DNA from: Stenotrophomonas maltophilia
Lineage (GTDB): Bacteria; Pseudomonadota; Gammaproteobacteria; Xanthomonadales; Xanthomonadaceae
NCBI RefSeq assembly: GCF_006974125.1
Contig: NZ_CP037858.1
Span: 62,001 to 126,000, forward strand
DNA: 64,000 nucleotides
Direction: 5' to 3'
Shown piece after piece: positions 9,477 to 58,841 of this stretch. The notes below the pieces were generated by a model that was given only the letters and a program-made list of their open reading frames with translations, did not search any database and had not been told where the DNA came from. A program made the position numbers and the translations under genes. How positions within the stretch are numbered: the stretch's first letter is position 1; each line of letters begins with the position of its first letter.

Positions 9477-9503
9477 ATATCGGCCCCGCGTGGGGGGACT
9501 TTA
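9477..9503 (-). promoter_or_regulatory. Sigma28 promoter of cheW
   Basis: TAAAGTCC-N11-GCCGATAT on the minus strand: six of eight -35 positions, seven of eight -10 positions and exact spacing. It is 43 bases upstream of the cheW ATG. Confidence 0.8.
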
Positions 9504-9590
9504 GGTGTGGCGCCTGGGGCATCCACGCAGGGCGTGGATCTGCCGGGGCGGGGTGGGCATCCGCAAATGGCGTGGATCCGCCGAAGATCG

Positions 9591-15965: not shown

Positions 15966-15992
15966 ATAACGGCACCCCGGCAGGGTTCTTTA
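15966..15992 (-). promoter_or_regulatory. Sigma28 promoter of the STAS-cheY-cheA operon
   Basis: TAAAGAAC-N11-GCCGTTAT on the minus strand. It lies 31 bases upstream of the STAS gene ATG. Confidence 0.75.
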
Positions 15993-16029
15993 GAAGAATC
16001 GACGCGGTGCGTCGTTGCGGTCGCTGCTG

Positions 16030-20007: not shown

Positions 20008-20034
20008 GTATCGGCTTGTATGAATGGGACTTGA
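20008..20034 (-). promoter_or_regulatory. Sigma28 promoter of motC-motD-parC-parP, abutting the ATG
   Basis: TCAAGTCC-N11-GCCGATAC on the minus strand. The -10 octamer ends 7 bases before the motC ATG, implying an almost leaderless mRNA. Confidence 0.65.
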
Positions 20035-20078
20035 GACACCGGGAGAGCGCGTACAGACGGTAGTCACAGTTTTCGGGT

Positions 20079-47161: not shown

Positions 47162-48667
47162 TCAGCCGGCCAGTTCTGCCTGCTCGCGCTCGATGCCGTA
47201 CTTGCGCAGCTTTTCCACCGGGGTGGTGCGGCGCAGGCCGAGCAGCTGGGCGGCGTGGGCGACCACGCCCTGGGTGCGTTCCAGTGCTTCGTTTATCAGG
47301 CCCAGTTCGATGCTGGCCATGTGGTTGCGCAGGTCCATGCCCTCGTCGGGCAGTGCGGCCGGTGCCGCCGGGCGATTGACGGCGATGCCGTGCTCCAGCG
47401 CCGGCTGGTTACCGCTGCCGGGCGTGTGGAACGAGAAGCTGCGCAGGTCCAGTCGCTCTTCGCTGGCGGCGGGCTGTGCCGGTGCCGGCGCAGCGACGGC
47501 GGCCAGTGCCGCATCGCCACGGTAGCGGGCCGGCAGGTCCTGCACGCGTACCGAGCCACCCGGGTGCAGCACCGCCAGGCGCTCGACCAGGTTGGTCAGC
47601 TCGCGCACGTTGCCCGGCCATTCGTAGCCGGCCAGTGCCTGCAAGGCTTCCGGGGTGAAGCGCACTTCGCCACGGCCGGTGCGGGCCAGCTGCGCGGCGA
47701 TGGTCTCCACCAGTGCCGGCAGGTCCTCGCGACGCTCGCGCAACGCGGGCACTTCAATCGGGAACACGTTCAGGCGGTAGAACAGATCCTCGCGGAACTT
47801 GCCTTCGGCGATGCGCGTTTCCAGATCGCGGTGGGTCGCGGCCACCACGCGCACGTTGCAGCGGATGGTCTGGTTGCCACCCACGCGCTCGAAACTGCGC
47901 TCCTGCAGCACGCGCAGCAGCTTCACCTGCATCGGCAGGCTCATGTCGCCGATTTCGTCGAGCAGCAGGGTGCCGCCCTCGGCCATTTCGAAACGTCCCT
48001 TGCGGGCGGTCAGTGCGCCGGTGAAGGCACCCTTTTCGTGGCCGAACAGTTCGCTTTCCAGCAGGTCGGCCGGAATGGCGCCGCAGTTGATCGCCACGAA
48101 CGGGCCGTCACGACGCGGCGAGCGCTGATGGATTGCACGCGATACCACTTCCTTGCCGGTACCGGATTCACCCAGCACCAGCACGGTGGTATCGAATGCG
48201 GCCACCTGCTCGATCATGGTGCGCAACGCAGTCACCGCCGCGCCGTTGCCGGTCGGGCCTTGATCCTGCGCGGCGCCGGCCTGGTGCTCGGCGTCCAGGC
48301 GCTTGAGGCTGGCGCGGCGCAGAAGGGCTTCCATCTGCGCGTGGCGCAGTGGTGTTTCAAGCGGCCAGATATTGGCTTCGTGCAGGCCGTGCTGCTGCGC
48401 GAATGCAGAGGCATCACCATCGGCCAGCAGCACCGGCGGTGGCAAGCTGCTGCCGCCCAGCCAGTTGTAGAGTGCAGTGCTGGCCGCGTTGTCGTCCAAG
48501 CAGCCGACGATCACCGCCATCCAATCGTTCTGGCGCTGCCGGCCCAGATCGAAGTCGGCCGCGTCGGAGACCCAGCGCGGGTTGAAGTCCATGAATTCCA
48601 GCAGGGCAACGGTGTGCTCTGCACGCACGGCGTCGTTGTCCAGCACCAGGATGCGCGATTCGCTCAC
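47162..48667 (-). CDS. fleQ: FleQ-type sigma54-dependent master regulator of flagellar genes
   Basis: This 501-residue enhancer-binding protein has an N-terminal receiver-like (REC) domain (about 5-120). Where a phosphorylatable Asp would stand, the strand reads AVIVGC, so it is not a normal phospho-switch, as in Pseudomonas FleQ. The AAA+ domain (about 140-375) has Walker A GESGTGKE (166-173) and the sigma54-contact loop GAFTGA (213-218). It also has Walker [12 protein letters not shown] and an arginine-finger region. The C-terminal Fis-type helix-turn-helix reads [26 protein letters not shown]. FleQ homologues bind cyclic-di-GMP. It overlaps vemR by 4 bases. Confidence 0.94.
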
Positions 48668-49055: not shown

Positions 49056-50465
49056 TCAGCCCACCCGGGCCAACAGCGGTTGCCTGGCGCCGAGCCGGCG
49101 CCGTTCACGGGCCGGGGCGATGTCCAGTTGTTCTCGGTATTTTGCGACGGTTCGGCGGGCAATGTTCACCCCCTGGCGCGACAGCAGGCCGGCGATGGCC
49201 TCGTCGGCCAGCGGCCGACCGGCCGGTTCGGCGTCGATCAGGCGACGGACCATGGCCTTCACGGCCTGGCCGGAGACGCTGGCGCCCTCCAGGCGCACGG
49301 CGAAGAAGTGCTTCAGTTCGAAGGTGCCGCGCGGGGTCTGCAGGAACTTGCCGGTGGTGATGCGCGAAACGGTGGATTCGTGCATGCCGATTTCTTCGGC
49401 CACTTCCTTCAGGGTCAACGGCGCCATGGCTTCCTCGCCACGCACCAGGAACGCGGCCTGGCGCTCGACGATCACCCGCGCGGTGCGCAGCAGGGTGTCG
49501 TAGCGCATCGACAGGCCGCGGCTGAACCAGCGCGCTTCCTGCAGCATTTCGCGCAGTGCCGGGGCGGCCTCGCTGGTCTCTGCCAGGGCCTGTTCGTACT
49601 GGCTGTTGATGGAGACGCGGCGGCTGGTCGTCGGGTTCAATGCCACCTTCCACTGGCCATCGGCGTGCCAGGCGACCACGTCCGGAACCACAACGGCATT
49701 GCGTTCCGGCAGCAGGCTGTCGCCCGGGCGTGGCTGCAGCGACAGGATCAGGCGTACCGCTTCGCGCACGTCGTCGATTTCGGCGTCGTGCTGGCGGGCG
49801 AGGGCGGGGTAATCATGTGCGGCAAGCGCATCGAGCGCGCCGTCCAGGATGCGCGTGGCCAGGTGGCGGGCAGGTACCACGCCGTGCAGGCTGCGCAGCT
49901 GCGCCTGCAGGCCCTCGCGCAGGTCCTGCGCGGCCATGCCGGCCGGTTCACCGTGCAGCAGCTGCTGGCGGATGGCTTCGACGCCGTCGGCAGCGATGTC
50001 GAACTGGGCGCTGGCCAGCAACTGCAGCTGGTCCAGCGGTGCCTGCAGGTAGCCGGCCTCGTCGCAGTGATCGAGCCAGAATGCTGCGACAGCTAGCTGG
50101 CGATCGTCCATGTCCAGCGACAGGCGCTGCAGCACGCGCAGCTGCGGGTCGGTCGATTCGCCGGCGGCGATGCGCGCCATGCGATCATCGTCGCCGTCCT
50201 GCCAGCTGGTACCGGCCACGTCCCACATCGAGGACTCCGGGAGCTCATCGAACGCAGCCGTCTCCAGCGTGGTGGCGGCGACCTCGGTGGCATCGGCGGC
50301 CGGCGCTTCGGCCTCTTCGATCTCCAGCAGCGGGTTGGAGTCCAGCAGTCGCTGGATTTCCTGTTCCAGGTGCAGGCCATCGAGCTGCAGCAGCCGGATC
50401 GACTGCAGCAGCTGCGGGGTGAGGTGAAGTTGTTGGCCCAGCTGGGTCGAGAGTGCAGCCTTCAT
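49056..50465 (-). CDS. rpoN2: RpoN (sigma54), flagellar-locus copy
   Basis: This 469-residue protein starts with the Gln/Leu-rich activator-interaction region (LSTQLGQQLHLTPQLLQSIRLLQLDG). It then has an acidic stretch, the core-binding domain and the DNA-binding part with the helix-turn-helix LKEVAEEIGMHESTVSRIT. The RpoN box reads ARRTVAKYRE, one residue off consensus. It reads the -24/-12 sites seen upstream of flhB, fliE, fliL and fliD, and needs FleQ-type activation. Xanthomonadaceae usually have a second rpoN near the PTS genes; whether that is true here is outside the window. It has a 285-base upstream gap. Confidence 0.94.
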   Translation of the reverse strand: MKAALSTQLGQQLHLTPQLLQSIRLLQLDGLHLEQEIQRLLDSNPLLEIEEAEAPAADATEVAATTLETAAFDELPESSMWDVAGTSWQDGDDDRMARIAAGESTDPQLRVLQRLSLDMDDRQLAVAAFWLDHCDEAGYLQAPLDQLQLLASAQFDIAADGVEAIRQQLLHGEPAGMAAQDLREGLQAQLRSLHGVVPARHLATRILDGALDALAAHDYPALARQHDAEIDDVREAVRLILSLQPRPGDSLLPERNAVVVPDVVAWHADGQWKVALNPTTSRRVSINSQYEQALAETSEAAPALREMLQEARWFSRGLSMRYDTLLRTARVIVERQAAFLVRGEEAMAPLTLKEVAEEIGMHESTVSRITTGKFLQTPRGTFELKHFFAVRLEGASVSGQAVKAMVRRLIDAEPAGRPLADEAIAGLLSRQGVNIARRTVAKYREQLDIAPARERRRLGARQPLLARVG

Positions 50466-52885: not shown

Positions 52886-54304
52886 TTAGCGGTTCAGCTG
52901 TGCCAGCTGCTGCTGCAGCGACGTATTGCTCTGCTGCAGCTTGCCCATCAGGCTGTCCAGCGCGATGAACTGCTTCTTGTAGCGCTCTTCCACGTTCTTC
53001 ATGCGCGTGTCGAGGTCCTTGCGGCGCTTGTCGATGTTGTCCAGCGTGGTGTTGAGGCCCTTGGTGCGGGCGACGAAGGCGCCTTCCTTGCCGACCGTGG
53101 TGCTGACGTAGCCGTCGACCATGGTGTACAGCGTGCCGGCACCACCGGTGTCGCCGGTGATCGCCGAGCGGATCTTCTCGGGCTGGCTGGCCAGCGCGGC
53201 GGCAAACTTGGTGGCGTCCAGCACCAAGCTGCCGTCGGCGTTGGGATAGCCGCGCGTCTGCAGTCCCAGCGTCTTCGGGTCCAGGCCATCGGCGGACAGC
53301 TCCTTCAACACGCCCGACATCACCGAGCGCAACTGGCTGGAGGCACCACGCATCTGCGCGTCGCCGGTCAGCGTGGCGGCTTCCTTGGTCTTGGCGTCGT
53401 ACTTGGTCTCGGTGTTGATCGCCGCGATTGCTGCGTTGTAGGCGGTCACGAACTCCTGCATCACCTTGGTGGCTGCAGTGGTATCGGTGCTGATCACGAC
53501 GGTGCTCTTGCCCTTGACCTTGAGGTTCAGGGTCAGGCCCGGCACGGCATCGGCCACGGTGTTGCTGGCGCTGACCACCGTGACGCCATCGATGGTCAGC
53601 TCGGCATCGGCTGCCGCGGTGTTCTCCTGCAGGCTGCCCACCAGTGCGCTCAGCTTCGGGTCGCTGCCGCCGTAATCGAGCTTGATGGCATTGGCGGCAC
53701 CGGTCTTTTCCTGGGCGATCGACAGGTACTGGTTGTCGCCCGAGGCGATCAAGGTCGCCTGCACGCCTTCCTTGCGGCCTGCGGCGTCGATCTTGTTGCG
53801 CACGGTGGTCAGCGTATCGCCGGCTTCCACCTCGACCTTCATCGTCTTTGCCTTGTCGCCCACGCCAACGGTCAGCGTCAAGGTTCCGGCGCCGAAGGTG
53901 TCGGTCTTCCCCACCGAGGTATTGGCAATCAGCTTGTGTGCGGTGGCAAGGGATTTCACCTCCACCTGATGCGTGCCATTGGAGGCTGCTGCCTTGGTCG
54001 TGCCCAGGTCGTACAGCGCCACCGAGGCCGTCAGCACGTCGTCGGTGTTGGCGGGCTGCGCCTTGCCGGTGGCGGTCACCGTGCGGGTATCGAAGGCGGT
54101 GGTGGCCTTCAGTGCGGTCAGTGCGGTCTTCAGCTTGTCGAAGGCCGAAGTGACGGTGCCGATCGACGACAGCTGCATCTTGGCCTTGGACTGCTGCAGG
54201 TTCAGCGCGTTGTCGGCGGGCTTGCGGTCGGCTGCGACCAGCTGGTTGACGATGTCCGAGATGTTGAGCCCCGAGCCAATGCCACCGTATCCAAAGCTTG
54301 CCAT
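52886..54304 (-). CDS. fliD: FliD, flagellar filament cap protein
   Basis: This 472-residue protein has FliD N- and C-terminal domains: GYGGIGSGLNISDIVNQLVAADR at the start and SQPEKIRSAITGD, GAFVARTKGLNTTLDNIDKRRKDLDTRMKNVEERYKKQFIALDSLMGKLQQ near the end. The ATG at 54304 begins the conserved N-terminus; longer frames upstream are not FliD-like. A sigma54 promoter lies about 96 bases upstream. fliS has its own promoter downstream. Confidence 0.96.
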   Translation of the reverse strand: MASFGYGGIGSGLNISDIVNQLVAADRKPADNALNLQQSKAKMQLSSIGTVTSAFDKLKTALTALKATTAFDTRTVTATGKAQPANTDDVLTASVALYDLGTTKAAASNGTHQVEVKSLATAHKLIANTSVGKTDTFGAGTLTLTVGVGDKAKTMKVEVEAGDTLTTVRNKIDAAGRKEGVQATLIASGDNQYLSIAQEKTGAANAIKLDYGGSDPKLSALVGSLQENTAAADAELTIDGVTVVSASNTVADAVPGLTLNLKVKGKSTVVISTDTTAATKVMQEFVTAYNAAIAAINTETKYDAKTKEAATLTGDAQMRGASSQLRSVMSGVLKELSADGLDPKTLGLQTRGYPNADGSLVLDATKFAAALASQPEKIRSAITGDTGGAGTLYTMVDGYVSTTVGKEGAFVARTKGLNTTLDNIDKRRKDLDTRMKNVEERYKKQFIALDSLMGKLQQSNTSLQQQLAQLNR

Positions 54305-54399
54305 GTGATTCTCCTGGTATCCGGGCCTGGCCGCCGTGCGGTGGCCCGTCGTCAACGAAAATAGCGGCCTGCGCCGCTGGGTCTTGAGGACTTCGTTGA

Positions 54400-54415
54400 T
54401 GCATGCGCCGTGCCA
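54400..54415 (-). promoter_or_regulatory. Sigma54 promoter of fliD
   Basis: The minus strand reads TGGCACG-GCGC-ATGCA: a perfect -24 and four of five -12 bases, with GG and GC 10 bases apart. Confidence 0.8.
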
Positions 54416-54433
54416 GTTGTCTGGCGGCGGATC

Positions 54434-54449
54434 TGGCACGCGGATTGCA
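54434..54449 (+). promoter_or_regulatory. Consensus sigma54 promoter facing rightward
   Basis: The plus strand reads TGGCACG-CGGA-TTGCA, a full match to the -24/-12 consensus. No gene follows on the plus strand; transcription would run through the intergenic region and antisense to fliC. Confidence 0.7.
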
Positions 54450-54502
54450 GGAGGGTTGGGGCAGGGTGCGGGTGGAATCACCGCAGGCTGCCGGGAGTCT
54501 GC

Positions 54503-54531
54503 AAAAAACCCTCCCCCAAGGCAGGGGAGGG
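54503..54531 (-). terminator. Rho-independent terminator of the flagellin genes
   Basis: On the minus strand CCCTCCCC / GGGGGAGG form a stem followed by GTTTTTTG. It lies about 215 bases after the fliC copy 1 stop. Confidence 0.85.
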
Positions 54532-54694
54532 ATCAGGCTACTGACAATCGGGGGGAGACGAAGCCGCCCGGTACGTACAGTCAAAGGTACAGCGCTGAAA
54601 GAGAGGTCCGCAGGAGCGGGCGATGCCAAGCCGGTTCGGGAGCGATCCCGGGCCGGGCATGGCCCGCGCCTTCGTGCACCGTGGCTTCCGGGTT

Positions 54695-54728
54695 GCCGCT
54701 ACCGTCGGTTCGATCCGACGGTAGCGGC
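54695..54728. terminator. 14-bp perfect stem-loop after fliC copy 1
   Basis: gccgctaccgtcgg-ttcgat-ccgacggtagcggc, 17 bases after the fliC stop. There is no T-run on either side except a short cttctt on the plus strand. It may protect the flagellin mRNA 3' end or stop rightward transcription. Confidence 0.5.
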
Positions 54729-54744
54729 GCCTTCTTGCCGTGGA

Positions 54745-55923
54745 TCAGCGCAGCAGGCTGAGCACGCCCTGCGGCACCTGGTTGGCCTGGGCCAGCATGG
54801 CCGTACCGGCCTGCTGCAGGATCTGGGTGCGGGTCAGCTCTGCGGTTTCCTTGGCGAAGTCGGTGTCCTTGATGCGGCTGCGCGACGCCGACAGGTTTTC
54901 CGACGAGGTCTGCAGGTTGGCCACGACCGAGGTGAAGCGGTTCTGGATCGCGCCGAGGTCGGCGCGGGTGCTGTTGATCGCACCCAGGGCCTTGTCGACC
55001 ACTTCCATTGCCTGCTGTGCACCAAGCACCGTGCTCACGTCCAGCTTCTGCACGTTGGCGGCGGTGGCGGTGCCAGCGGTGTAAGCACCGGCTGCGGTCT
55101 TCGCGCTCCACACGCCGGTCGCGGCGGTCAGATCGCTGCGCTCAAGCGCGATGTCGGCAGCGACGACGGCCTTGCCTTCCTTCACCGAGGTCAGTTTCAT
55201 CGAGCCGTCGGCATTCGCCTCGGCATAGAGGCCGGCTTCGCCGATCTTTGCGTTGATCGCCGTGGCGACAGCCTTGGACGCGTCGGCAGTGGTGGCGCCG
55301 GCCTTGATCTCGACGGTGCCGATGTCCACGCCCATTACCTTGCCGGTAATGCGCGAGCCGTCGGTACTGGCGGCCAGTACGTCAGTTGCACCGCTTGCGA
55401 AGGTCGAGGTGCCGAGCGAACCCGCTTTCGCATCGATGGTCTTGTCGATGGCGATGGCCTGGCCGGCATTGGCGCCGACCTGGAACAGCTGGCTGGAGAA
55501 CGTGCCGTCCAGCAGCTTGGTGCCGTTGAAGTCCGACTGCTTGGCGACGCGGTCGATTTCCGAGACCAGCTGGGTCACTTCGGCCTGCAGCGCCTTGCGG
55601 TCGCTGGCCGAGTTGGTGGCGTTGGAGGCCTGCACCGACAGCTCGCGGACGCGCTGCAGGTTGTTGCCGATTTCGGTCAGCGAACCTTCGGCGACCTGGG
55701 CCAGCGAGATGCCGTCGTTGGCATTGCGGATGGCAACGTCGGTACCGCGGATCTGCGTGCCGAAGCGCTCGGAGATCGCCAGGCCGGCGGCGTCGTCCTT
55801 GGCGCTGTTGATGCGCGAACCGGAGGACAGGCGCTGGATGGTGGTGGCCAGCGAGCTGCCGCTGGTGCTCAGATTGCGCTGAGCATTCAACGACATCGTA
55901 TTGGTGTTGATGACTTGTGCCAT
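54745..55923 (-). CDS. fliC: Flagellin, tandem copy 1 (392 residues)
   Basis: This flagellin has conserved D0/D1 ends: MAQVINTNTMSLNAQRNLSTS at the start and LTRTQILQQAGTAMLAQANQVPQ then GVLSLLR at the end. The central part (about 165-290) is variable. The first 160 and last 90 residues are almost identical to copy 2, including at silent positions, while the centres differ. A short SD (GGA) precedes the ATG. I find no sigma28 site in the 86-base gap to copy 2, but a hairpin lies there at 55964-55990. It may be read through from the upstream copies or from an undetected promoter. Confidence 0.96.
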   Translation of the reverse strand: MAQVINTNTMSLNAQRNLSTSGSSLATTIQRLSSGSRINSAKDDAAGLAISERFGTQIRGTDVAIRNANDGISLAQVAEGSLTEIGNNLQRVRELSVQASNATNSASDRKALQAEVTQLVSEIDRVAKQSDFNGTKLLDGTFSSQLFQVGANAGQAIAIDKTIDAKAGSLGTSTFASGATDVLAASTDGSRITGKVMGVDIGTVEIKAGATTADASKAVATAINAKIGEAGLYAEANADGSMKLTSVKEGKAVVAADIALERSDLTAATGVWSAKTAAGAYTAGTATAANVQKLDVSTVLGAQQAMEVVDKALGAINSTRADLGAIQNRFTSVVANLQTSSENLSASRSRIKDTDFAKETAELTRTQILQQAGTAMLAQANQVPQGVLSLLR

Positions 55924-55963
55924 GGTGCTTTTCCTTTGGCGAAGGTGGAACGTATTTCAGGAT

Positions 55964-55990
55964 CCGGGCGCCGCGTCATGCAGCGCCCGG
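55964..55990. repeat. Hairpin between flagellin copies 1 and 2
   Basis: ccgggcgc / gcgcccgg with an 11-base loop. It has no T-run, so it is more likely an mRNA-processing or stability element than a full terminator. Confidence 0.5.
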
Positions 55991-56009
55991 AGGTCGATCA
56001 GCGAGCGGA

Positions 56010-57185
56010 TCAGCGCAGCAGGCTGAGCACGCCCTGCGGCACCTGGTTGGCCTGGGCCAGCATGGCCGTACCGGCCTGCTGCAGGATCTGGGTGCGGGTC
56101 AGCTCTGCGGTTTCCTTGGCGAAGTCGGTGTCCTTGATGCGGCTACGCGAAGCCGACAGGTTCTCCGACGAGGTCTGCAGGTTGGCCACGACCGAGGTGA
56201 AGCGGTTCTGGATCGCGCCGAGGTCGGCGCGGGTGCTGTTGATCGCACCCAGGGCCTTGTCGACCACTTCCATTGCCTGCTGTGCACCCTTCACGGTGGA
56301 CACGTCGATCTTGTCGGCGAACTGCTTGCCCGGGACCGGGGTTGCCGCGGCGAAGCCGGCCAGCGAGCTGCCGATGGCAGTGAAAGCGCCCGCGTTGTTC
56401 ACGCTGTCCTTGACCGAGGTCAGGGTCAGTGCGCCGGCGGCATCGGTTTCGGCCAGCACGCCGGTTTCGCCGATCTTGGCGTTGATGGCGGCAGCAACGG
56501 CCTTGCCGTTTGCAGCGGTGTTGGCGGCAGCGTCACCGACGCTCTTGACCGTCATGGCGCCGAAGTTGAAGACGGTGCCCTTGCTGTCGGTGATGGTGAA
56601 CGCACCCACTGCGGTGTCGGTGTCAGCGGTACCGGCGATTGCGGTTGCGGTACCGCTGGAGAACTGTGCACCACCCAGGGCGTTGGCCTTGGCATCGATG
56701 GTCTTGTCGATGGCGATGGCCTGGCCGGCATTGGCGCCGACCTGGAACAGCTGGCTGGAGAACGTGCCGTCCAGCAGCTTGGTGCCGTTGAAGTCCGACT
56801 GCTTGGCGACGCGGTCGATTTCCGAGACCAGCTGGGTCACTTCAGCCTGCAGCGCCTTGCGGTCGCTGGCCGAGTTGGTGGCGTTGGAGGCCTGCACCGA
56901 CAGTTCGCGGACGCGCTGCAGGTTGTTGCCGATTTCGGTCAGCGAACCTTCGGCGACCTGGGCCAGCGAGATGCCGTCGTTGGCGTTGCGGATGGCGACG
57001 TCGGTACCGCGGATCTGCGTGCCGAAGCGCTCGGAGATCGCCAGACCGGCGGCGTCGTCCTTGGCGCTGTTGATGCGCGAACCGGAGGACAGGCGCTGGA
57101 TGGTGGTGGCCAGCGAGCTGCCGCTGGTGCTCAGGTTACGCTGAGCATTCAACGACATCGTATTGGTGTTGATGACTTGTGCCAT
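56010..57185 (-). CDS. fliC: Flagellin, tandem copy 2 (391 residues)
   Basis: It has the same N- and C-terminal sequence as copy 1 (for example SGSRINSAKDDAAGLAISERF and the LTRTQILQQAG end) with a distinct centre (about 165-290). A 72-base gap separates it from copy 3. No sigma28 site is seen there. A sigma54-like box on the minus strand (GGGCACG-N4-GGGCG, near 57224-57239) lacks a good -12 half. Confidence 0.96.
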   Translation of the reverse strand: MAQVINTNTMSLNAQRNLSTSGSSLATTIQRLSSGSRINSAKDDAAGLAISERFGTQIRGTDVAIRNANDGISLAQVAEGSLTEIGNNLQRVRELSVQASNATNSASDRKALQAEVTQLVSEIDRVAKQSDFNGTKLLDGTFSSQLFQVGANAGQAIAIDKTIDAKANALGGAQFSSGTATAIAGTADTDTAVGAFTITDSKGTVFNFGAMTVKSVGDAAANTAANGKAVAAAINAKIGETGVLAETDAAGALTLTSVKDSVNNAGAFTAIGSSLAGFAAATPVPGKQFADKIDVSTVKGAQQAMEVVDKALGAINSTRADLGAIQNRFTSVVANLQTSSENLSASRSRIKDTDFAKETAELTRTQILQQAGTAMLAQANQVPQGVLSLLR

Positions 57186-57257
57186 GAGGAGAGGTCCTTG
57201 AGCGGTTGCACGTGAGTTGGGTTAGACGCCCCCGACGTGCCCCGGGAGCGGCTCATG

Positions 57258-58478
57258 TCAGCGCTGCAACAGGCTGAGCACGTTCTGCGGTACCTGGTTG
57301 GCCTGGGCCAGCATGGCCGTACCGGCCTGCTGCAGGATCTGGGTGCGGGTCAGTTCGGCGGTTTCCTTGGCGAAGTCGGTATCGCGGATGCGGCTGCGCG
57401 AGGCCGACAGGTTCTCCGAGGAGGTCTGCAGGTTGGCCACCACCGAGGTGAAGCGGTTCTGGATCGCGCCAAGGTCGGCGCGCACGCTGTTGACCGACTC
57501 GAGGGCCTTGTCGACGATCGACAGCGCCTTCTGCGCGCCCTCGGCCGTGGTGACGTTCAGGTCCTTGACGAAGTTGGCCGTGGCGCCGGTCAGCAGGCCG
57601 CCGTCGGTGCTGGTCTGGGTCAGGCCCAGGCCGGCGATGGTCGCGGCGGTGGCGCCGGCCGGCGGGGTTGCGGCACTGACGCCCAGGGTGAAGGTCTGGC
57701 CGTCCTTGACCGAGGCCAGGCTGATCACACCGGCATTGACCGAGGCCATGACGCCGGTTTCGCCCAGCTTGTTGTTGATCGCGGCGGAGGTGGCCGAGGT
57801 GATCGATTCACCCGCCTTCACGGTGAAGTCGTTGATGGTGACCGTGGTCGCAGTGCCGCCCGGCGGGGTCACCGAGATCTGCAGGCCGGAGTAGGTGGTG
57901 TCGGCGGTGGCCTTGTCGGCCGCGGCCAGGCTGGTGCCGGTGTAGCCGTTGGCGAAGGTCGCCGCGCCCAGCGAATCGGCCTTGGCGTTGACCACGCTGT
58001 TGATGGCGATGGCCTGGCCGGCGTTGGCGCCGACCTGGAACAGCTGGCTGGTGAAGGAGCCGTCCAGCAGCTTGGTGCCGTTGAAATCGGCCTGCTTGGC
58101 GACGCGGTCGACTTCCGAGACCAGCTGGGTCACTTCAGCCTGCAGGGCCTTGCGGTCGCTGGCCGAGTTGGTGGCGTTGGAGGACTGCACGGCCAGTTCA
58201 CGGATGCGCTGCAGGTTGTTGCCGACTTCGCTCAGCGAACCCTCGGCGACCTGGGCCAGCGAGATACCGTCGTTGGCGTTGCGGATGGCCACGTCCAGAC
58301 CGCGGATCTGGGTGGTGAAGCGCTCGCTGATGGCCAGGCCGGCCGCGTCGTCCTTCGCGCTGTTGATGCGCAGGCCGGACGAGAGGCGCTGGATGGTGGT
58401 AGCGAGCGAGCTGCCGCTGGTGCTCAGGTTGCGCTGAGCGTTGAGCGACATCGTATTGGTGTTGATTACCTGTGCCAT
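57258..58478 (-). CDS. fliC: Flagellin, tandem copy 3, promoter-proximal (406 residues)
   Basis: This is a more diverged flagellin: SGLRINSAKDDAAGLAISERFTTQIRG where copies 1 and 2 have SGS...FGTQIRGTD, and QRIRELAVQSSN where they have QRVRELSVQASN. The centre differs again and the C-terminus is NVLSLLQR. Its RIRELAVQ segment is closer to the TLR5-recognised consensus than that of the other copies. The ATG at 58478 gives the conserved flagellin start; a longer frame is rejected. A strong sigma28 promoter lies 95 bases upstream. Confidence 0.97.
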   Translation of the reverse strand: MAQVINTNTMSLNAQRNLSTSGSSLATTIQRLSSGLRINSAKDDAAGLAISERFTTQIRGLDVAIRNANDGISLAQVAEGSLSEVGNNLQRIRELAVQSSNATNSASDRKALQAEVTQLVSEVDRVAKQADFNGTKLLDGSFTSQLFQVGANAGQAIAINSVVNAKADSLGAATFANGYTGTSLAAADKATADTTYSGLQISVTPPGGTATTVTINDFTVKAGESITSATSAAINNKLGETGVMASVNAGVISLASVKDGQTFTLGVSAATPPAGATAATIAGLGLTQTSTDGGLLTGATANFVKDLNVTTAEGAQKALSIVDKALESVNSVRADLGAIQNRFTSVVANLQTSSENLSASRSRIRDTDFAKETAELTRTQILQQAGTAMLAQANQVPQNVLSLLQR

Positions 58479-58572
58479 GGGGTCGTCTCCTCTTATATGG
58501 AACCCGTTGGTGAATGAAACGAAGCGCCGCCTGTTTTTTTGTGTGGCTGTGTGCTTCGCTGTTGCCAAATGA

Positions 58573-58599
58573 ATAACGGCGCTTTGTCAACAACCTTTA
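58573..58599 (-). promoter_or_regulatory. Sigma28 promoter of the flagellin genes
   Basis: TAAAGGTT-N11-GCCGTTAT on the minus strand, with exact spacing. It is 95 bases upstream of the fliC copy 3 ATG. Confidence 0.82.
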
Positions 58600-58841
58600 G
58601 CCGTGAATTCCGTCGAAGCTGAAATTCGGTGCCGGAGGCAGTTTTCCCGGGGTTTTTCAGCCCTGGTCGGGCGTGAAGGCAACCCCGGAAGGGGCGGTTG
58701 GGCATGCCCAACCAGCGCTGATGAAGGTATCGGCGGGGCAGGGCCGGGCTTGATGGGAAATCACGGAAAATGCGCCGGCGCAGCTTTCCGGCAGCGGCGG
58801 ACCGCGCCGGGCGAGCGCGACGGAACGGGCACGCAGGAACG

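Follow-up and report, generated by a model that had tools for sequence, protein, structure and literature searches.

What does a perfect sigma-54 promoter do when it lies in the gap between fliD and a flagellin gene, points away from fliD and is followed by no gene? The window, by which we mean the whole stretch of 64,000 nucleotides of Stenotrophomonas maltophilia DNA that was analysed, contains TGGCACGCGGATTGCA (TGGCACG-CGGA-TTGCA) on the plus strand at 54434-54449, with no mismatch to the consensus TGGCACGNNNNTTGCW (Table 1). An earlier note on this DNA had described a full -24/-12 consensus at this place, and the site is in fact the only exact match in the window. GG at -24 and GC at -12 stand at the standard spacing, and genes for sigma-54 itself (rpoN) and for a fleQ-type activator both lie inside the window. 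With GG and GC fixed, five sites with one mismatch occur elsewhere in the window. Degenerate matches of up to three mismatches number 120 in the window against a mean of 147 in shuffles, and because there is no excess of them, only the exactness and the conservation of the site count as evidence. In the 4.55-Mb genome, TGGCAYGNNNNTTGCW (TGGCAYG-N4-TTGCW) occurs seven times including this site, and the reversed control not once. Two of the other six sites have ORFs 35 and 40 bases behind them, which we take to be flgA and glnA, and the remaining four had no gene start by a crude ORF test. Transcription from the site is predicted to start near 54460. The opposed fliD site that the earlier note placed 19 bases away is present, but the gap between the two sites is 18 bases (17-20 across 51 loci). 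A pattern scan with the sigma-28 consensus, which was taken from general knowledge, found the minus-strand boxes given in Table 1 before fliD and the first flagellin, and more such boxes on the minus strand at 9478-9504, 15967-15993 and 20009-20035.

Table 1. Positions in the window of the genes, promoters and RNA elements discussed in the text.
Feature	Position	Strand	Evidence
Gene of the fleQ-type activator	47162..48667	-	Pfam FleQ, Sigma54_activat
rpoN (sigma-54) gene	49056..50465	-	Pfam Sigma54_DBD, CBD, AID
fliD	52886..54304	-	Pfam FliD_N, FliD_C
Sigma-28-like box before fliD, CTCAAG-N14-GCCGCTA type	54362..54388	-	pattern scan
Opposed fliD sigma-54 site	54400..54415	-	one mismatch; retained in 51 aligned loci
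Sigma-54 promoter (-24/-12), faces away from fliD	54434..54449	+	exact match; conservation
Possible 5' hairpin of the plus-strand RNA, arms 54460-54464/54488-54492 and 54467-54471/54481-54485	54460..54492	+	arms kept
Putative trailer small RNA, about 96 nt: closing stem UCAGCGCU/AGCCUGA, C-rich stem-loop, intrinsic terminator	54503..54598	-	alignment, covariation, covariance model
Terminator stem and T-run, small RNA / flagellin mRNA	54503..54531	-	terminator scan
Invariant loop of the small RNA, UUCGUCUCC (GGAGACGAA on the plus strand)	54554..54562	-	identical in 31/31, alignment A1
Stem-loop just behind the stop of flagellin copy 1, part of the trailer	54695..54728	-	two-sided changes stay paired
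Flagellin copy 1	54745..55923	-	Pfam Flagellin_N, Flagellin_C
GGAGACGA, ribosome-binding site of the first flagellin (ATG 58478), candidate target of the small RNA	58483..58490	-	complementarity, co-occurrence
Sigma-28-like promoter of the first flagellin, CTAAAG..GCCGTTA	58574..58600	-	pattern scan

The fliD-flagellin gap was searched by DNA in 91 genomes of the genus, and 52 loci were gathered. One of them, L052, was excluded from the 51 class-1 loci that were counted because its stretch is duplicated and contains an N; judged by eye, it also has the plus-strand sigma-54 site. The earlier note had named a loss of the dinucleotides at -24 and -12 from close relatives as evidence against it; none was seen, and GG and GC are retained in 51/51 aligned loci while the spacer drifts. 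Within TGGCACG the T, both first G, the first C and the last G are found in all 51 loci, the A in 50 and the remaining C in 49, and TTGCA is intact in all 51. Counted along a tree built from fliD DNA, changes numbered 2 in the 12 consensus letters, 27 in the four-base spacer and 170 in the 18 bases separating the opposed sites. Twelve columns drawn at random from 54416-54500 were never as low as the consensus letters (0/100,000 draws). A sliding comparison found stretches of the same shape with equal or fewer changes in the fliD leader (54351-54362) and in the small RNA described below (54523-54550), and such equally conserved stretches had at most nine spacer changes, against 27 at the promoter. 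The five bases at the predicted start, 54461-54465, took 1 change altogether in the 51 loci. Identity to the window falls to about 70% in the most distant class-1 gaps. Since the consensus letters were kept and the spacer was free in gaps down to this identity, the alignment indicates that the site is under selection at -24 and -12, beyond general similarity. A consensus match by chance is extremely improbable. The size of the genome, the four of six other exact sites without a gene by the crude test and the missing surplus of degenerate matches in the window would all suit chance, but seven exact sites against none in the reversed control would not, and conservation with a free spacer across the 51 loci led us to rule it out.

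The promoter is present in all 52 members of the genus that have the fliD type of the window, and in 0/60 gaps with other fliD types. A fliD match was found in 89 of the 91 genomes of the genus, where it forms two classes, 52 at an identity of at least 68% and 37 at 36-40%; one class-2 fliD is split into two pieces of 36 and 43% identity. The split would fit a replacement of the filament cassette in one class. Class-2 gaps were compared in 20 of the 37 genomes, and the fliD sigma-54 site was found in all 20 (at most two mismatches), the plus-strand site in none; the sole plus-strand match near these gaps, in L058, has two mismatches and lies 1.1 kb off. Forty gaps from other genera, taken out of a larger set of matches, had the fliD site in 29 cases and the plus-strand site in none; L102 has a plus-strand site with two mismatches, but inside the flagellin gene. 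A scan of a collection of species genomes for back-to-back sigma-54 pairs yielded 33 loci. The trailer small RNA adjoins the pair in 29 of them, and in two (L129 and L133) the available sequence stops short of where the small RNA would lie. L129 (JAHREJ010000076.1) is labelled Bacillus subtilis SK7B5, but its promoter pair is that of Stenotrophomonas, and the assembly is probably mislabelled. Pairs in the same layout without the small RNA occur at L135:7020-7075 and L151:2906-2957 (Herbaspirillum, Leptothrix bin). We read the plus-strand promoter as the gain of a single Stenotrophomonas lineage.

A conserved sigma-54 site does not have to make a useful RNA. It could bind sigma-54 polymerase or another protein, and hold polymerase near or compete with the fliD promoter. 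In E. coli, intragenic and orphan sigma-54 sites are conserved, common off ordinary gene starts and in some cases antisense, and the available text describes neither a small-RNA partner nor a flagellin target for them (PMC4591121). Binding of this kind would be consistent with the close placing of the opposed sites in 51/51 aligned loci. However, the fliD site does without a plus-strand partner in 20/20 class-2 gaps and in 29/40 gaps of other genera, and the bases at the predicted start have hardly changed, so that we regard binding without a useful RNA as rather improbable.

The region from the flagellin stop (54745) to about 54500 is conserved far above an ordinary trailer. Alignment A1, with 31 sequences (17 of the 52 class-1 loci, three copies from L052 and 11 of 13 from the genera g17 and g32), retained on the minus strand a terminator stem and a stem-loop whose loop, TTCGTCTCC, is invariant; alignments A2 and A3 covered 23 of the 51 loci, A5 24 loci and A6 10. 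Covariation exceeded 500 shuffles on three of five measures, namely paired cells (97.3% against 91.5%, 0/500), cells changed on both sides (39 against 15, 0/500) and covariation score (0.277 against 0.161, 0/500). The number of pairs with two-sided changes was weakly raised (5 against 3.7, 12/500), and pair types were not raised over shuffles (500/500). G-U, which fits the minus strand only, was found in 12 cells, against 4 cells of C-A, which would fit the plus strand only; a second count in the helices gave 7 and 0. The minus-strand terminator has its stem at 54531-54509, followed by a T-run to 54503. At L052:252-722 three copies of the element stand in tandem, about 180 bases apart and each with its own terminator, in an assembly with 10% contamination. 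The element is thus conserved and structured and has an intrinsic terminator on its own strand; coding was looked at in the plus frames only. From the polarity of the terminator, the covariation, the G-U pattern and the tandem units of L052 we conclude that the conserved trailer element probably encodes a minus-strand small RNA.

A covariance model of the small RNA gave strong matches (at least 72 bits) in 52/91 genomes of the genus and in 22/297 genomes of a family sample, all at the flagellin-fliD locus, and matches at other places were weaker, below 37 bits. Rfam covariance models gave no match up to E = 1 in 54250-56200. Homologues at the equivalent place, without the plus-strand promoter, are present in 12 genomes of g17 and one of g32. 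An antagonist is therefore not essential to the small RNA, and we conclude from these homologues that the small RNA is older than the plus-strand promoter. No sigma-70-like promoter for the minus-strand RNA was found in 54200-57300. The box GCCCGCYCCTGCGG upstream of the small RNA was rejected as a sigma-54 promoter because its spacing is wrong. The block at 54606-54650 to which this box belongs is conserved in the genus, and might act as an unfamiliar type of promoter or belong to a longer RNA.

From 54460 the plus strand is complementary to the whole small RNA and, having no terminator, its path would continue antisense into flagellin copy 1. The earlier note had offered two fates for this transcript, to end near the stem-loop at 54695-54728 or to be antisense to flagellin copy 1. 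The first is not borne out: the scan found no plus-strand terminator at the stem-loop, the stem-loop has no plus-strand T-run in the window, and the sequence behind the stem-loop is not kept in relatives. The antisense path of the second stands, but the conserved minus-strand small RNA would be covered first and is the likelier partner. The earlier note is right on the promoter and wrong on the end of the transcript, and it missed the small RNA. It also had nothing protein-coding behind the promoter, and no coding signal was found in the plus frames tested in the 51 loci. A small plus-strand ORF at 54623 was rejected as not coding on its changes by codon position (109/146/116), and 54464-54544 in the frame of 54410 (60/55/70) gave no coding signal. 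A start codon for the long plus frames at 54336 and 54403 is present in 30/51 loci, and no stop codon interrupts these frames up to the flagellin end in 2/51 and 11/51, respectively. Over 54450-54743 their changes were 276/259/228 and 259/228/276, the last with a slight third-position excess, and both were rejected.

It is conceivable that the promoter fires and that the act of transcription matters rather than the RNA, with convergent polymerases disturbing the end of the flagellin operon or the small RNA. The promoter stands head-on to the flagellin terminator 60 bases away, nothing terminates transcription on the plus strand, and interference is also discussed in the available text on CJnc180/190 (PMC8687705). 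We consider this unlikely; it does not need the match between the loop and the flagellin site described below, although it is compatible with that match.

The plus strand of 54460-54745 folds far below shuffles (z -5.4). Together with the conserved first bases, this would agree with a regulator in its own right, one that targets other mRNAs in trans and whose overlap with the trailer RNA is of secondary importance. The minus strand of 54503-54742, however, folds equally well (z -5.0), and the terminator of the core, its G-U pattern and its older homologues are all on the minus strand, which makes an independent regulator improbable. The first 33 bases of the predicted plus-strand RNA might form a 5' hairpin, whose arms are kept and whose loop is variable in two clades; a distant clade has a different sequence at this position that can pair too. 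In 33 near relatives the pair 54467-54485 is U-G in 19, U-A in 12 and C-G in 2. Covariation of the hairpin is not over shuffles, and short 5' folds of the RNA are no more stable than shuffles (z -1.3 to +0.7). The 5' fold energy is lower on the plus strand in 39/39 distinct sequences, which may reflect only G-richness. An alternative 5' pairing from RNAalifold was dropped, being the best fold in some sequences only. The 5' hairpin is suggestive only.

The sequence GGAGACGA is the exact complement of the invariant loop core, and is also found at 54554-54561, inside the loop stretch. In the leader of the first flagellin, GGAGACGACCCCATGG, it forms the ribosome-binding site. It stands a few bases before a flagellin start in 52/91 genomes of the genus and 22/297 of the family, once in each. 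The genomes with GGAGACGA at flagellin are exactly those with strong matches to the model and, in the genus, also those with class-1 fliD. An eligible flagellin start was found in 88/91 genomes of the genus, and GGAGACGA in 0/36 of those with the start but without the RNA. Most other leader bases vary among 29 aligned leaders (28 loci, one genome twice, and the window), all of which were picked for having GGAGACGA. The duplex of loop and leader had an energy of -22.3 kcal/mol, compared with -14.8 (sd 3.4) for shuffled leaders, of which 5/200 were as low. For ten other starts the corresponding numbers out of 200 were 9 for flgL, 20 for fliF, 30 for fliS, 58 for rpoN and at least 99 for the other six, the flgL and fliS starts being our own assignment. 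In raw duplex energy rpoN (-25.6) was below the first-flagellin leader. The small RNA, the flagellin site and the fliD type may travel as one cassette, and the co-occurrence would therefore rest on few independent events. In g17 (L073-L084, position about 230-320) the fliD leader contains GGGAGACGGAGA within a long inverted repeat, a possible further target of the small RNA.

Cis-encoded small RNA antagonists and RpoN-dependent flagellar small RNAs are both already known. CJnc180 of Campylobacter jejuni antagonises CJnc190, a precedent for the logic proposed here, and CJnc190 has its 3' end a short way upstream of the promoter from which CJnc180 is read on the opposite strand, a layout like that of this locus (PMC8687705). 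Unlike here, the target is ptmG and not flagellin, and a sigma-54 promoter is not mentioned in the available text (PMC8687705). As read from the DNA of this locus, the predicted plus-strand RNA resembles CJnc180 in having its own promoter on the opposite strand and in overlapping the small RNA. FlmE (CJnc230) and FlmR (CJnc170) of C. jejuni are RpoN- and FliA-dependent small RNAs with opposite flagellar effects, but they are not mutually antisense, and FlmE is cut from hook-gene mRNA and represses flgM, as far as the available text describes them (PMC11187230). The small RNA of this locus lies in a flagellin trailer, and a flagellin sigma-28 box was found only before the first flagellin. FliX is likewise located in the trailer of fliC. 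This sigma-28-dependent, UTR-derived small RNA of the flagellar regulon of Escherichia coli differs in pairing inside coding sequences and acting on ribosomal protein mRNAs, and an antisense sigma-54 partner is not described in the available text (PMC10578931). Within the Xanthomonadaceae, the C-rich loops of sX13 of Xanthomonas act on G-rich motifs near translation starts (PMC3771888, available text). The trailer small RNA has a C-rich apical loop too, but lies between fliC and fliD, whereas sX13 is always downstream of polA (PMC3771888). The gene order was drawn on the available part of PMC5550985. Neither the trailer RNA nor the promoter is described in the titles and abstract openings returned by searches of openly available literature, and the terms flagell, fliC, antisense and strand-specific are all absent from the main text of an RNA-seq study of S. 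maltophilia (PMC5700063). The trailer small RNA is apparently unreported so far.

The reading that we prefer, with a probability of about 0.5, is a working sigma-54 promoter whose RNA, starting at about 54460, is antisense to and an antagonist of a trailer small RNA that represses flagellin. It builds on the conservation of the promoter, of the RNA and of its strand, and on the complementarity and co-occurrence described above; that both RNAs are made, that flagellin is the target and that repression, antagonism and their timing are as follows would be predicted from these. The loop UUCGUCUCC of the minus-strand small RNA would pair with GGAGACGA of the sigma-28-driven first flagellin, and this pairing would repress its translation. 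The predicted sigma-54 RNA, a full-length complement of the small RNA, contains GGGGGGAGACGAAGCC, including the flagellin ribosome-binding sequence, and would thus also display GGAGACGA. It might capture the small RNA or drive its cleavage, and flagellin would be relieved. In flagellar hierarchies of this kind, sigma-54 and FleQ act ahead of sigma-28. Because of this order, the antagonist would be made early, during building of the hook-basal body, and the repressor late, once flagellin is transcribed. We propose more tentatively, at somewhat less than even odds, that both arms of a flagellin timing switch come from a single stretch of DNA, the late, sigma-28 strand a repressor and the earlier, sigma-54/FleQ strand an antisense decoy, and that the repressor is the older arm, common to two other genera, to which the promoter was added in one Stenotrophomonas lineage.

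If this is true, the two flagellar sigma factors would each drive one strand of a single locus and affect the same gene in opposing ways, which would make for compact control of the hierarchy. In the related genera g17 and g32 the small RNA is present without the antagonist promoter, and they offer a direct comparison for the gain of an antagonist. A flagellin-directed small RNA would also be added to a bacterial family that is met in plant work and in clinics.
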